Assembly (NCBI GenBank): GCA_946405105.1
Contig: CAMJFY010000002.1
Location: 62,001-126,000 of the forward strand
DNA length: 64,000 nt
Source of the DNA: an uncultured Caryophanales bacterium
GTDB lineage: Bacteria; Bacillota_I; Bacilli_A; Acholeplasmatales; Anaeroplasmataceae
Direction: 5' to 3'
This document shows, piece after piece, positions 49,662 to 59,241 of this stretch (the stretch's first letter is position 1; every line of letters starts with the position of its first letter). Below the pieces are notes generated by a model. That model did no database searches. It saw only the letters and a list, made by a program, of their open reading frames with translations, and was not told where the DNA came from. Both the position numbers and the translations under genes were made by a program.

Positions 49662-50057
49662 GGGCTTGTTTTAGGATTCGCTGGGAGTCATAAAGATTTG
49701 TAAGCATGTGGGAGTAGTCTTCCTTAACAACGTCGGGGTTTTAAATAAACGCTGAAGAAAATAATGATTATGCATTTTTAGCTGGTAGAAATACTCAAGC
49801 TAACTATGCTTTCGCTTGCTAATATAATTTAAGCGACAGAACCCTACTGATTTCCTATGTCGGTAGGCTTTCTGACAATTGAATAGGATATATTTATTGT
49901 GCGCTACTCTAACATAGTAAATGAATTTAATAGAGTGTAGTTAGTTTTTGGTTTGATTATTCGCTTAGGGCTAATGAAGATTTAGGATAATCTAAACATG
50001 TAGAAAGCAAGTTGGAGTGGTTTTCATACGGGAGTTCGAGTCTCCCCAAGTCCACCA
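49662..50057 (+). ncRNA. ssrA: transfer-messenger RNA (tmRNA)
   Basis: Acceptor stem GGGCTTG/CAAGTCC-ACCA, T-arm ggagttcgagtctcc; tag ORF GCTGAAGAA...TTCGCTTGCTAA (AEENNDYAFLAGRNTQANYAFAC); directly after smpB. Confidence 0.95.
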
Positions 50058-50073
50058 TAATGAATAGTATATT

Positions 50074-50100
50074 TTGATACGATTATGTATCAAGATATTT
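50074..50100 (+). terminator. possible tmRNA terminator
   Basis: TTGATAC-gattat-GTATCAA followed by an imperfect T-rich tract. Confidence 0.4.
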
Positions 50101-50138
50101 TATATAAAACTTTAACTAAGCTATAAATTAATAATTAA

Positions 50139-50169
50139 GGCACTTATTAATGAAAATAAGTGTCTTTTT
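50139..50169 (+). terminator. terminator between tmRNA and the minus-strand gene
   Basis: GGCACTTATT-aatgaa-AATAAGTGTC-TTTTT. Confidence 0.6.
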
Positions 50170-50173
50170 ATTT

Positions 50174-51046
50174 TTATAAATTCTTTAATAAATCTTCTTT
50201 ACTTATTGATATAATTTTTGTCATGACAAATCTTTTCTTACCTACATCCTTAATAGAAGAACCAATAGAATATATATCATCATCTATTATTAAAAATCTA
50301 TCATGCATTATATTATTTCTAATTATAGTTAATTTATGATTAATTTGGAATTTATTAATATCTTGTTTAGAAATACTAGCTGAAGGTAATGTGTAAATAG
50401 TAATAGGTGTATTTGTTTCATTTAACATATCTAATACAGCTATATCTATATATCCATCGATAATTAATATTTCTTTCTTAGCAGATAGAAGAAGCTTTTT
50501 AATATAAGAATATGCCTCAAATATATTGTTTTCATAAAATAGCATATTTGATAATATATTGTCAGTTGATTCAAGTGATGATAATCTATTATTCATATTA
50601 GATGCATTTTCAATTAAATAATTTACTTTATTATTTAATGTAATTATATTTTCTTGGCATTCAATACACCTTTTATTATTTATAGAATAGCCATTTAGTA
50701 AATATTGCTTTAAAACTGAATTGGCCCATTTCCTAAATAATATACCACGATTTGATTTAACTCGATATCCCAATGATATTATTACATCTAAATTATAATA
50801 AGCGACATTGTATGTTTTGCCATCTAAAGCAGTTGTCGCAAAAAATGCGACAGCTGAATTATCACATTCTTCATTTAAAATGTTATTAATATGCTTTCTT
50901 ATTGTTTTTTCATCTCGTTCAAACAATTTTGCAAGATCATGAACATTTATCCATACAGTCTCTTCATTAGGTGATACATTTACATCTAAACTGAATTCTC
51001 CATCTTCAAATTTTATCAATTCGTATTTCTTTTCTTGAATATTCAT
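50174..51046 (-). CDS. RhuM-like DNA-binding N-terminal region fused to PLD-like domain
   Basis: VWINVHDLAKLFERDEKTIRKHINNI...FRKWANSVLKQYLLNGYSIN; C-term MHDRFLIIDDDIYSIGSSIKDVGKK (HxRx4D); RBS aggagg. Confidence 0.75.
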   Translation of the reverse strand: MNIQEKKYELIKFEDGEFSLDVNVSPNEETVWINVHDLAKLFERDEKTIRKHINNILNEECDNSAVAFFATTALDGKTYNVAYYNLDVIISLGYRVKSNRGILFRKWANSVLKQYLLNGYSINNKRCIECQENIITLNNKVNYLIENASNMNNRLSSLESTDNILSNMLFYENNIFEAYSYIKKLLLSAKKEILIIDGYIDIAVLDMLNETNTPITIYTLPSASISKQDINKFQINHKLTIIRNNIMHDRFLIIDDDIYSIGSSIKDVGKKRFVMTKIISISKEDLLKNL

Positions 51047-51077
51047 ATTGTTTTCCTCCTATTTTTCTCAAAAAGAA

Positions 51078-51107
51078 AAGCCTTACTGTATCTCTACAAT
51101 AAGGCTT
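51078..51107 (-). terminator. intrinsic terminator in the 5' leader of the RhuM-like gene
   Basis: Minus strand AAGCCTTATTGTA-GAGA-TACAGTAAGGCTT-TTCTTTTT. Confidence 0.65.
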
Positions 51108-51153
51108 AAAATTTTTTATTAAGTTGTAATTTCATTTTAATAAAATGTCTCAT
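51106..51153 (-). CDS. candidate 15-aa leader peptide MRHFIKMKLQLNKKF
   Basis: ATG preceded by AGGAAG at 9-10 nt spacing; TAA abuts the 5' arm of the terminator. Confidence 0.4.
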   Translation of the reverse strand: MRHFIKMKLQLNKKF

Positions 51154-51179
51154 ATATACAACTTCCTTTTTATAGTTTT

Positions 51180-51188
51180 ATTATAGCA
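51180..51188 (-). promoter_or_regulatory. extended -10 promoter of the RhuM-like leader
   Basis: Minus strand TGC-TATAAT. Confidence 0.5.
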
Positions 51189-51311
51189 CAAAATAACTTA
51201 AAATGGTATAATTCAAGTAATGTATTACATGTTTGTGATAATGTGAATAATTTAGGGTTTAAAATTGAAAGAAGGAGGATATATAATCAATTTTGATTAT
51301 ATTAGCATAAT

Positions 51312-52094
51312 ATGAAAAGAATAATAGCTATATTTTCAGTAGTTTTAGTATTTTTATTAACGGGATGTAAAACAAATCAATTGTCACGCATAGGTATTAT
51401 ATCTGCGATGGATAATGAAATAGAATTATTATTACAAGATGCTAAAATAGATCATGTTGATAAAATTGGAACAGTAGATTATCATGTAGGAACATTACAT
51501 GGTAAGCCAGTAGTTATTTCTAGATCTGGAATTGGTAAAGTATATGCATCTTCAGGTGCGACTACAATGTTAAATAAATATAATATATCAAAATTAATAT
51601 TTACTGGTATTGCTGGTGGAGTTTCAGATGAAACAGAAGTCTTAGATGTTGTTGTTGCGACAAAACTAGTAGAGCACGATTATGGTATTCTTACTAATGA
51701 TAAATTTGAATGGGTTTCAGGAGATCCAGGCTTTAGTGATGAACCTGGTACTTATTATGAAAGTGATAAAGATTTAGTTAATTTAGCTTATAATTCATCT
51801 ATAGAAGTTATTGGCGAAAATCATTCCTTTAAAGGAGTTATAGCAACGGGTGATCAATTCATTGCATCTGAAACATATGTTCAAGAATTAAAAGATAACT
51901 ACAATGCATACGCATGTGAAATGGAAGGAGTTTCTATTGCAAAGGTATGCATGAATTATAATGTTCCTTATGTTGTGATTAGAGCATTGTCAGATAAGGC
52001 TGATGGTAATGCTCATGATAGTTATGAAAATTTTGGGGATATCGCAGCTTCTAATTCAAGTAAGATAGTTTTAAAAATGCTTGAATCATTATAA
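51312..52094 (+). CDS. predicted lipoprotein MTA/SAH nucleosidase
   Basis: Lipobox LLTGC; IGIISAMDNEIELL, RSGIGKVYAS, ACEMEGVSIAKVC, VIRALSDKAD. Confidence 0.88.
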   Translation: MKRIIAIFSVVLVFLLTGCKTNQLSRIGIISAMDNEIELLLQDAKIDHVDKIGTVDYHVGTLHGKPVVISRSGIGKVYASSGATTMLNKYNISKLIFTGIAGGVSDETEVLDVVVATKLVEHDYGILTNDKFEWVSGDPGFSDEPGTYYESDKDLVNLAYNSSIEVIGENHSFKGVIATGDQFIASETYVQELKDNYNAYACEMEGVSIAKVCMNYNVPYVVIRALSDKADGNAHDSYENFGDIAASNSSKIVLKMLESL

Positions 52095-57485: not shown

Positions 57486-57591
57486 GATGAAATTGGGGAA
57501 AAAATTTAATTTAGCAAAGTTAGAGCAATCTAGCGACGCAAAGCTATAGGGTCCCATGTGGATAGCCAGTTGCAAAAAATAGACTTTCATC
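57486..57591 (+). promoter_or_regulatory. class-I cyclic-di-GMP (GEMM) riboswitch; aptamer core about 57513-57573
   Basis: GCAAAG-ttagaGCAAtcta-GCGACGCAAAGC-tatagggtcccatgtggata-GCCAGTTGC; closing pairing GATGAAA/TTTCATC. Confidence 0.82.
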
Positions 57592-57633: not shown

Positions 57634-59241
57634 GTGAGAAAAAAATTTTTTGCAGGAACTGCAGTAGCTATGTGTGTGCTAGGTTTTTCTTTATGCACTG
57701 TTTCAATTGATGCGACATCTAATGATATCGTAACTAATGACCAATTTGTATTTGATGCAAATAATCTAACTTCTAATTATGAATCAGGTGCATATATTGC
57801 GCAAGACCTAAATGTAAGTGTTAAGCTTGGTAACAACTACCAAGGAAATATTTTAAATGCTGGATTTGATTTTGGAGATTATAAATTTGATTATTGCTTA
57901 TTAGCAACAACTCCAACATATTCTTCATGGGAATCATTATTCAACAGCTTCTTCAAAAAGCAATCTAAGAATCAAGATTTAGCTCAATACTATATCTCAG
58001 CTTCAGAAGGAACTAGATGTGGTGTTTACTACACTGTAGTAGATAAGACACCAGTTGATAACACTTATTATGTTTCAAATAATAATACAGTTAGTGTTAT
58101 TAAGGAAAAAGGTAAGAACAAATATACAACTGTTGATACATTCACAGAACAATTAGATTCAATGTATTATTCTGAATTTACATTTGGAACTCAAGGAACA
58201 GTTGGTTTAAAGTCTGATACACAATACATTTGCTTATTTGGAGTTACAGTTGTTACTGAAACTGAAATCGAGAATAGAGAAGAATCAAATCAAGCTATTG
58301 AAAATTTAATTAATTATTATAATACATATGGTGTATCTACATCAGAAGAATTTACAAATCTTGTAGATGCTGCAAAGGAATCTTTAGAAGGTGTTAACCA
58401 TGTTTCTAAGATTGCTGATTATGATACATATCAAGATATCTTAGCTAAATATGATGAATTAGCTAATGTTGAAGCTAAGATTTCAGAATTAAGATTATTT
58501 AGTGCTTTTGCAAGAACAACAATGCCTTTATTAAATGTATCATATGATGATGCAACTAAAGAATTATTAGATGATATTGCAAATGAAATTGCAGCAGCAA
58601 ATGCATTAGGTATCTCAAATGAAGAAATTTCTAATTATAATTTATATTTAGAAGCGTTAAATATGTATAATGAAATGTCAAATGCTGCTATTGAAGCATT
58701 TGTTAATAAAGTAGCTGAAGCTAACGCTGTAAAGGGTGAAACTTCATCTTATGCATTAATTAATGAAGCAGAAGAATTATATAATGCTTTAAATTCTTAT
58801 GATAAAGAAAATGAAGCAGTAGTTGCTGCATATAATGCATTACAAGAAGTAAAAGCAGCTTATACTGAATATCAAGCATCTGTAACAGATAATGATATTG
58901 TATTCAATTACAATGAAGATGGTTTAATAAGCTCAATTGTATTTATTGGAACAATCAAGAATTTTGTATCAGCAAGTGAAATTGAGAATATTGTAATGGT
59001 TATTACTGATGAAACAACTGGTGAATCAGCTGAATACACATTAGAATCAGTATATAAGTCATTAAAGCAAAATGGTCAAGCTTTAAAAACTGCTGCTGAA
59101 GGTGTTAGATATATTTATAAGAAAATTGTTAATACAGATGGACAATATGATGGACATAAGCTTACAATGGCTTATTCAGTAGAATATACTGATGGTCATG
59201 TTGTAACATCAACACCAAAATCAGTAATAGTTGAGGCTTAA
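57634..59241 (+). CDS. secreted/surface protein with helical repeat region
   Basis: Signal peptide MRKKFFAGTAVAMCVLGFSLCTVSIDA; GTG start after GGGAGG. Confidence 0.75.
   Translation: MRKKFFAGTAVAMCVLGFSLCTVSIDATSNDIVTNDQFVFDANNLTSNYESGAYIAQDLNVSVKLGNNYQGNILNAGFDFGDYKFDYCLLATTPTYSSWESLFNSFFKKQSKNQDLAQYYISASEGTRCGVYYTVVDKTPVDNTYYVSNNNTVSVIKEKGKNKYTTVDTFTEQLDSMYYSEFTFGTQGTVGLKSDTQYICLFGVTVVTETEIENREESNQAIENLINYYNTYGVSTSEEFTNLVDAAKESLEGVNHVSKIADYDTYQDILAKYDELANVEAKISELRLFSAFARTTMPLLNVSYDDATKELLDDIANEIAAANALGISNEEISNYNLYLEALNMYNEMSNAAIEAFVNKVAEANAVKGETSSYALINEAEELYNALNSYDKENEAVVAAYNALQEVKAAYTEYQASVTDNDIVFNYNEDGLISSIVFIGTIKNFVSASEIENIVMVITDETTGESAEYTLESVYKSLKQNGQALKTAAEGVRYIYKKIVNTDGQYDGHKLTMAYSVEYTDGHVVTSTPKSVIVEA

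Follow-up and report, generated by a model that had tools for sequence, protein, structure and literature searches.

A probable ribosome-mediated transcription attenuator upstream of RhuM-PLD and YhcG nucleases, two families of phage-defence candidates

To our knowledge, little is understood of what silences stand-alone defence nucleases and what later activates them. The question is raised by a locus in a 64,000-nucleotide stretch of DNA from an uncultured Caryophanales bacterium of the family Anaeroplasmataceae, referred to here as the window. At this locus, a short open reading frame (ORF) and an intrinsic terminator lie between a promoter and a gene for a RhuM-PLD protein. What does this leader do to the gene? 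The sequence-only reading of this DNA had proposed leader-peptide attenuation. Homologs strongly support that core idea: the leader ORF, the hairpin over its Shine-Dalgarno sequence (SD) and the terminator are retained together in most first-in-operon RhuM-PLD copies of Anaeroplasmataceae.

Anatomy of the leader and its surroundings

The leader and its gene lie on the minus strand. The sequence has an extended -10 promoter element, TGCTATAAT, at 51180..51188, and TGNTATAAT or a close variant stands at the equivalent position in nearly all homologous leaders; promoter inspection at the locus found no good -35 box upstream of the leader. The SD of the leader ORF, AGGAAG (51162..51167), is purine-rich, as in the type A leaders described below. 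It is followed by a 15-codon ORF, MRHFIKMKLQLNKKF and a stop (51106..51153), the frame of which is conserved in homologs and the stop codon of which overlaps the first base of the terminator stem. Within it the codons TTA CAA CTT AAT (51118..51129) encode a conserved L-Q-L-N motif. The intrinsic terminator, located by a terminator scan, consists of the stem-loop AAGCCTTATTGTAGAGATACAGTAAGGCTT (51078..51107), with 13 pairs in the stem, and a T-rich tail, TTCTTTTT, that extends to 51070; the region has two terminator-like sites against 0.2 +/- 0.4 in shuffles. A conserved TTTTTGAGAAAA segment then precedes the SD of the main gene, AGGAGG (51055..51060), and the gene itself (50174..51046) encodes 290 aa with a RhuM-type N domain and a C-terminal PLD-like domain. 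The -10, both SDs, the ORF, the terminator and the gene are all present where the sequence-only reading had placed them.

The same reading had drawn a hairpin that masks part of the leader SD, and this hairpin is found in the minimum-energy fold. Its 5' arm, AAGTTGTA (51157..51164, from fold and covariation), overlaps the SD, and its 3' arm, TACAACTT (51121..51128), lies inside the L-Q-L-N codons; the helix, called hairpin 1, covaries in homologs. The whole leader folds with a z of -4.9 and the 5' part alone with only -1.7.

An SD and a short ORF ending at or in an intrinsic terminator stand ahead of 1 of the 47 ORFs of at least 100 aa in the 64-kb window. Because of this count, and because of the RNA-model matches in relatives given below, the layout is not a chance feature. 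In a scan of the window no known Rfam riboswitch or leader family matched at the leader; the only Rfam covariance models to reach threshold were those for tmRNA and the c-di-GMP-I riboswitch. The riboswitch (57503-57577, 51.4 bits) lies before a 535-aa ORF at 57634 that begins with a signal-peptide-like segment.

The tmRNA that had been pointed out beside the gene is real (49662-50057). A functional link to it was considered and dropped: most homologs with the same leader lie elsewhere, and the tmRNA is therefore not part of the mechanism. As a separate observation, RhuM-PLD genes repeatedly converge on the 3' ends of tRNA or tmRNA genes (49662-50173 in the window; L005, L009, L018, L020, L033 and L262), the RNA neighbours being tmRNA twice and tRNA-Thr, -Gln, -Ser and -Cys, as if these ends were insertion sites for RhuM-PLD genes.

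The controlled genes and the spread of the leader

The N domain of the 290-aa protein matches Pfam Virulence_RhuM (1.7e-19), and PADLOC PDC-S05 gives a full-length profile match (E 8.9e-82 over residues 6-288). The model of the C-terminal domain matches PLD-fold nucleases and phospholipases in the PDB, NucT and Zucchini among them; the Pfam PLDc_2 match to this domain is below cut-off. The C-terminal motif HDRFLIID has the form H-x-R-x4-D, with R replacing the usual K of HKD, and R250 is invariant. Since the alignment covers the C-terminal third only, whole-model TM-scores are low; the best-ranked structure matches (TrmBL2, rmsd above 16) were set aside as not meaningful.

The second family behind the leader consists of nucleases with DUF1016_N and a YhcG_C PD-(D/E)XK domain, PADLOC PDC-S02 (5.6e-96). 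RhuM-PLD and YhcG have unrelated folds, and by database status both are single-gene phage-defence candidates. Most PDCs are called unvalidated in the source literature (PMC12988326), and the available parts of the literature naming these two families report no regulation of PDC-S05 or PDC-S02.

Two side observations concern the evolution of these genes. Residues 33-85 of RhuM-PLD (a predicted HTH and beta hairpin) are 33-57% identical between copies, and the blocks that flank them are about 80-97% identical in close relatives, an identity pattern that may be read as a mosaic with an exchangeable recognition segment. Tandem same-strand arrays of RhuM N-domain fragments occur at G024:C19:11323-13974 and G011:C13:58337-60251 (L247, L248), tandem whole and partial YhcG genes lie on one strand at G006:C39:12887-18149 (L235), and many contigs end inside such array genes; the pattern points to cassette arrays that recombine. 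In L258 two RhuM N domains are fused.

How widely is the leader found? It stands upstream of most first-in-operon RhuM-PLD copies in the order, and in tandem gene pairs (L033, L040) it is present at the first gene only. RNA model R1, built from RhuM-PLD leaders only, finds it in 24 of 61 relatives, with many of the matches preceding YhcG and not RhuM-PLD; a broader model, used later, finds it in 22 of 56 family genomes. A sample of 296 Bacilli genomes has it in 7, with two other families (f19, f23) represented, and in 388 sampled genomes of the phylum it was found in Bacilli only; all such counts overstate independence, the leaders being related by descent and exchange, and the assemblies are MAGs. 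Scans of viral contigs gave no viral relatives.

Wherever the gene downstream of a strong match can be identified, it is RhuM-PLD or YhcG, and no third gene family was found behind the leader among the RNA-model matches. A few leaders precede decayed genes, the orphan leaders L173, L176, L182, L188 and L178 have no detectable RhuM or YhcG downstream, and at L016/L061 an intact RhuM-PLD gene has no leader. Leaders have diverged to 65-75% identity, and on one contig (G021:C41) the leader of a RhuM-PLD gene matches that of a YhcG gene at 98% identity. This distribution suggests a portable switch, exchanged between two unrelated candidate defence families.

Homologs that keep the gene and lose the leader had been named as the observation that would speak against attenuation. 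Within Anaeroplasmataceae this is not the pattern, but it is found in Bacteroidales, whose RhuM-PLD genes have no leader, and the leader is also absent from more distant YhcG proteins. In G007, YhcG copies without the leader (L229, L233, L234, L244) are preceded by a different conserved segment, TTTTCAATTTTTTAATACATCATG...CTCTTATTACT.TATATGGAGGAAG, and a mini-ORF within it extends into the start of the YhcG gene.

Leader types, reading frame and RNA structure

Upstream of RhuM-PLD the leader occurs chiefly in two forms. Leaders of type A carry an SD together with the hairpin AAGTTGTAA/TTACAACTT. Type B, from one genus, reads MRNNKVNVWCKPLLQFKKTL and a stop; its AUG follows TATAAT by only about 6 nt, and it is therefore probably leaderless. 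It has no 5' SD hairpin and folds at z = -7.6. In type B a helix of up to 13 bp joins the region of the start codon to a segment just after the terminator; in 8 of 10 cases the pairing has a shuffle p <= 0.004, with search regions that were chosen after the fold had been seen. In the type B leader L012 the A-run is longer by one base, and the leader ORF thereby continues across the terminator in the frame of the RhuM gene; read-through is predicted to give a leader-RhuM fusion. Type E comprises four YhcG leaders of genus g6 (L214, L219, L239, L240) with the SD GGAGG and peptides such as MYIIYFTSLSIIPVK that stop at the terminator; their DNA around the motif resembles type B, read in another frame.

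The ORF is conserved as a frame. The distance from the ATG to the CAA of the motif is 18, 21, 24 or 27 nt in type A leaders, and the only out-of-frame case in the distance table is L188, an orphan leader without a gene. From ATG to motif it is 30, 39 or 42 nt in type B, where the frame is kept in 9 of 10 leaders, the exception, L027, being frameshifted. All seven distances (18-42 nt) are multiples of three. In frame, 43 of 44 leaders have no premature stop before the terminator; in the other two frames stops occur in 23 and 38 of the 44, a count that in one of them is partly set by the motif itself. A nonsense codon is found in L023, which precedes a pseudogene with an internal stop. Judged by this conservation of frame, the leader is coding and would be translated. 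A -1 frameshift at an A6-A8 run followed by a hairpin was considered, since such a run precedes the stem in many leaders, and dropped, L005, L006, L011, L014 and L018 having none.

Among 42 distinct type A leaders CAA (Q) is invariant and the second codon of the motif is L or F in 40 (CTT, CTA, CTG, CTC, TTG, TTT); at the third codon 41 have N (AAT 37, AAC 4) and one has AAG. The pN/pS ratio is 0.26 for QLN against 1.20 for the rest of the peptide, and the residues before QLN vary freely.

This coding character bears on a second way of reading the locus, as an RNA antitoxin, in which the terminated leader RNA would bind and silence the nuclease and the terminator would set the ratio of RNA to protein. 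The order of promoter, RNA, terminator and gene is indeed that of ToxIN and of RCd22-abiF of C. difficile (PMC12373285), and the RNA is strongly structured, as the z of type B illustrates. However, an open reading frame is kept across seven different lengths, there are no tandem repeats in 51040-51320, and one leader, in 98% identical copies, serves two unrelated folds, whereas RNA antitoxins match their toxin. Nor is there a ToxN-like toxin as in type III toxin-antitoxin systems; the proteins are instead RhuM plus PLD-like or DUF1016 plus PD-(D/E)XK. An RNA antitoxin is thus improbable here, and the type III-like RNA that had been kept as a less likely alternative is disfavoured by a leader that is coding and common to two unrelated proteins.

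Covariation across homologs had been suggested as a check, and compensatory changes are found in both the terminator and hairpin 1. In an alignment of 49 distinct leaders 96.1% of cells are paired against 78.9% in shuffles, two-sided changes number 114 against 21 in shuffles, and the covariation score is 0.56, with slid controls reaching 0.14 at most. Fitting the alignment to the tested structure favours that structure, but the contrast is large. Compensatory changes occur at 10 of the 10 modelled terminator pairs, and the same terminator covariation is seen on a MAFFT alignment. In hairpin 1, 92.7% of cells are paired and 4 of the 6 pairs changed on both sides. The switch between TACAA in the leader and TTGTA in the terminator arm fared differently: it can be drawn in the window, but it has no two-sided change and only 11 of 44 leaders retain its fourth pair. 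No conserved mutually exclusive antiterminator was found among the leaders, and blocking of the terminator would therefore have to be by the ribosome itself, in which case an antiterminator is not required.

The helices and the frame might instead have a passive origin, in a bidirectional terminator that insulates a mobile gene, with the leader ORF kept only by recent spread of the cassette. The genes are clearly mobile and duplicated, and A-rich and T-rich sequence flanks the terminator on either side. Yet although the leaders have diverged to 65-75% identity and the N part of the peptide changes neutrally (the pN/pS of 1.20), they still keep the frame, the motif, the spacing and, by compensatory changes, both helices. 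A passive role is very improbable.

Proposed mechanism and known systems

What, then, would a ribosome on the leader do? Counted from CAA, the first G-C pair of the terminator lies 17-23 nt downstream. The footprint of a ribosome extends about 15 nt ahead of the P-site codon, and with this spacing a ribosome held at QLN or just after it would therefore reach the base of the stem.

The constraint on QLN could be partly structural, being confounded in part with hairpin 1: the 3' arm of this helix includes the Q and L codons, and only the N codon lies outside. The main rival explanation goes further. Any ribosome translating the leader would run on to its stop codon and open the terminator, so that the gene would be expressed whenever the leader is translated and silent at low translation, and QLN would be kept only for hairpin 1. 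Such plain coupling fits the leader stop codons, which almost always fall at the base of the terminator stem, in its loop or in its 3' arm; it also fits a peptide that is unconstrained outside QLN, and Q and L codons that form half of hairpin 1. It does not account for the N codon, which is kept though outside hairpin 1, or for L265 and the type B leaders, which keep Q[F]N/K without the type A hairpin. Because the N codon is kept and because L265 retains QFN with no hairpin 1 visible, the peptide itself would seem to matter. L262, by eye, remakes hairpin 1 as GATTT/AAATC while reading QIN. There are counter-examples: in type E, in the RhuM leaders L027 and L267 and in the YhcG leader L266 the conserved DNA is translated in a different frame. 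On balance plain coupling is unlikely, although it is the strongest competitor.

A leader peptide and a terminator, with Q, L and N codons kept at constant spacing from the stem, could also belong to an amino-acid-starvation attenuator that responds to the supply of Gln, Leu or Asn. But the codons are single and form no run, the downstream genes are nucleases and not biosynthesis genes, and there is no mutually exclusive antiterminator; a starvation response is hardly to be expected.

We favour, with moderate confidence, a portable ribosome-mediated transcription attenuator: a ribosome that slows near QLN would keep the terminator from forming and so switch on the nuclease. Of this reading, the attenuator part has good support; promoter, short ORF, intrinsic terminator and target gene are found as one layout in the window and in dozens of homologs. 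We infer the stall-ON direction and the inducing signal. RNA polymerase would start at the extended -10 and transcribe a leader ORF of about 15-25 codons, and by default transcription would end at the intrinsic terminator ahead of the nuclease gene. Hairpin 1, by pairing the leader SD with the QLN codons, would admit only an early-loaded, co-transcriptional ribosome to the leader. If this ribosome slowed or arrested at or just after Q-[L/F]-N, its leading edge would lie at the terminator base, 17-23 nt on. The terminator stem would then be blocked, polymerase would read through, and the stand-alone nuclease, RhuM-PLD or YhcG, would be made. The signal may be something that disturbs translation, for instance phage infection, an antibiotic or tRNA depletion, and induction by perturbed translation is plausible. 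The wider proposal, that one transferable translation-sensing attenuator arms several unrelated single-gene anti-phage nucleases so that ribosome trouble triggers immunity, is tentative.

If the attenuator reading is true, the ribosome on the QLN leader would be a concrete sensor for the control of immune effectors, the leader could serve to mark further genes of this kind, and the inducing signal could be sought with a simple reporter system. Such shared regulation would also support grouping PDC-S02 and PDC-S05 as functionally related.

In the literature searched, the coverage of which is incomplete and leaves novelty unproven, nothing was found on leader-peptide attenuation combined with anti-phage function for the RhuM-PLD or YhcG families. 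Terminator-gated defence genes are known. RCd22-abiF of Clostridioides difficile (PMC12373285), like type III systems, has a promoter, an RNA of about 100 nt, an intrinsic terminator and a defence gene reached by read-through. RCd22, however, is a non-coding RNA with repeated motifs that binds AbiF, whereas the present leader is coding, free of repeats and shared by two unrelated proteins. As far as the available part of the source goes (PMC2661086), abiD1 of Lactococcus lactis is likewise a terminator-gated phage-defence gene, with a 50-base prematurely terminated transcript ahead of it and a poly-U/RBS stem after the terminator; it is activated at translation by a phage protein, removal of the terminator had no positive effect, and a leader peptide is not described there. 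At the present locus TTCTTTTTGAGAAAAA, after the terminator (51060-51078), can pair with the SD AGGAGG of the gene in the predicted fold, possibly a second lock like the poly-U/RBS stem of abiD1.

The vmlR and bmrCD leaders of B. subtilis control antibiotic-resistance genes by ribosome-mediated transcription attenuation (PMC9226507), and they share with the present leader a uORF, a leader hairpin that contains the uORF, an intrinsic terminator and a main-gene SD. In vmlR, an antiterminator/anti-antiterminator switch serves antibiotic resistance; here the targets are phage-defence candidates and no antiterminator is conserved, which excludes the vmlR subtype. Control of a toxin-antitoxin operon by a uORF is known from toiL of the E. 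coli topAI-yjhQ operon (PMC12121999). There, too, a small uORF senses disturbed translation and controls a toxin- or defence-like operon, and we infer a similar sensing here. The toiL system acts through occlusion of the topAI ribosome-binding site and Rho-dependent termination, whereas the present leader has an intrinsic terminator directly after the ORF and serves two unrelated nuclease families.
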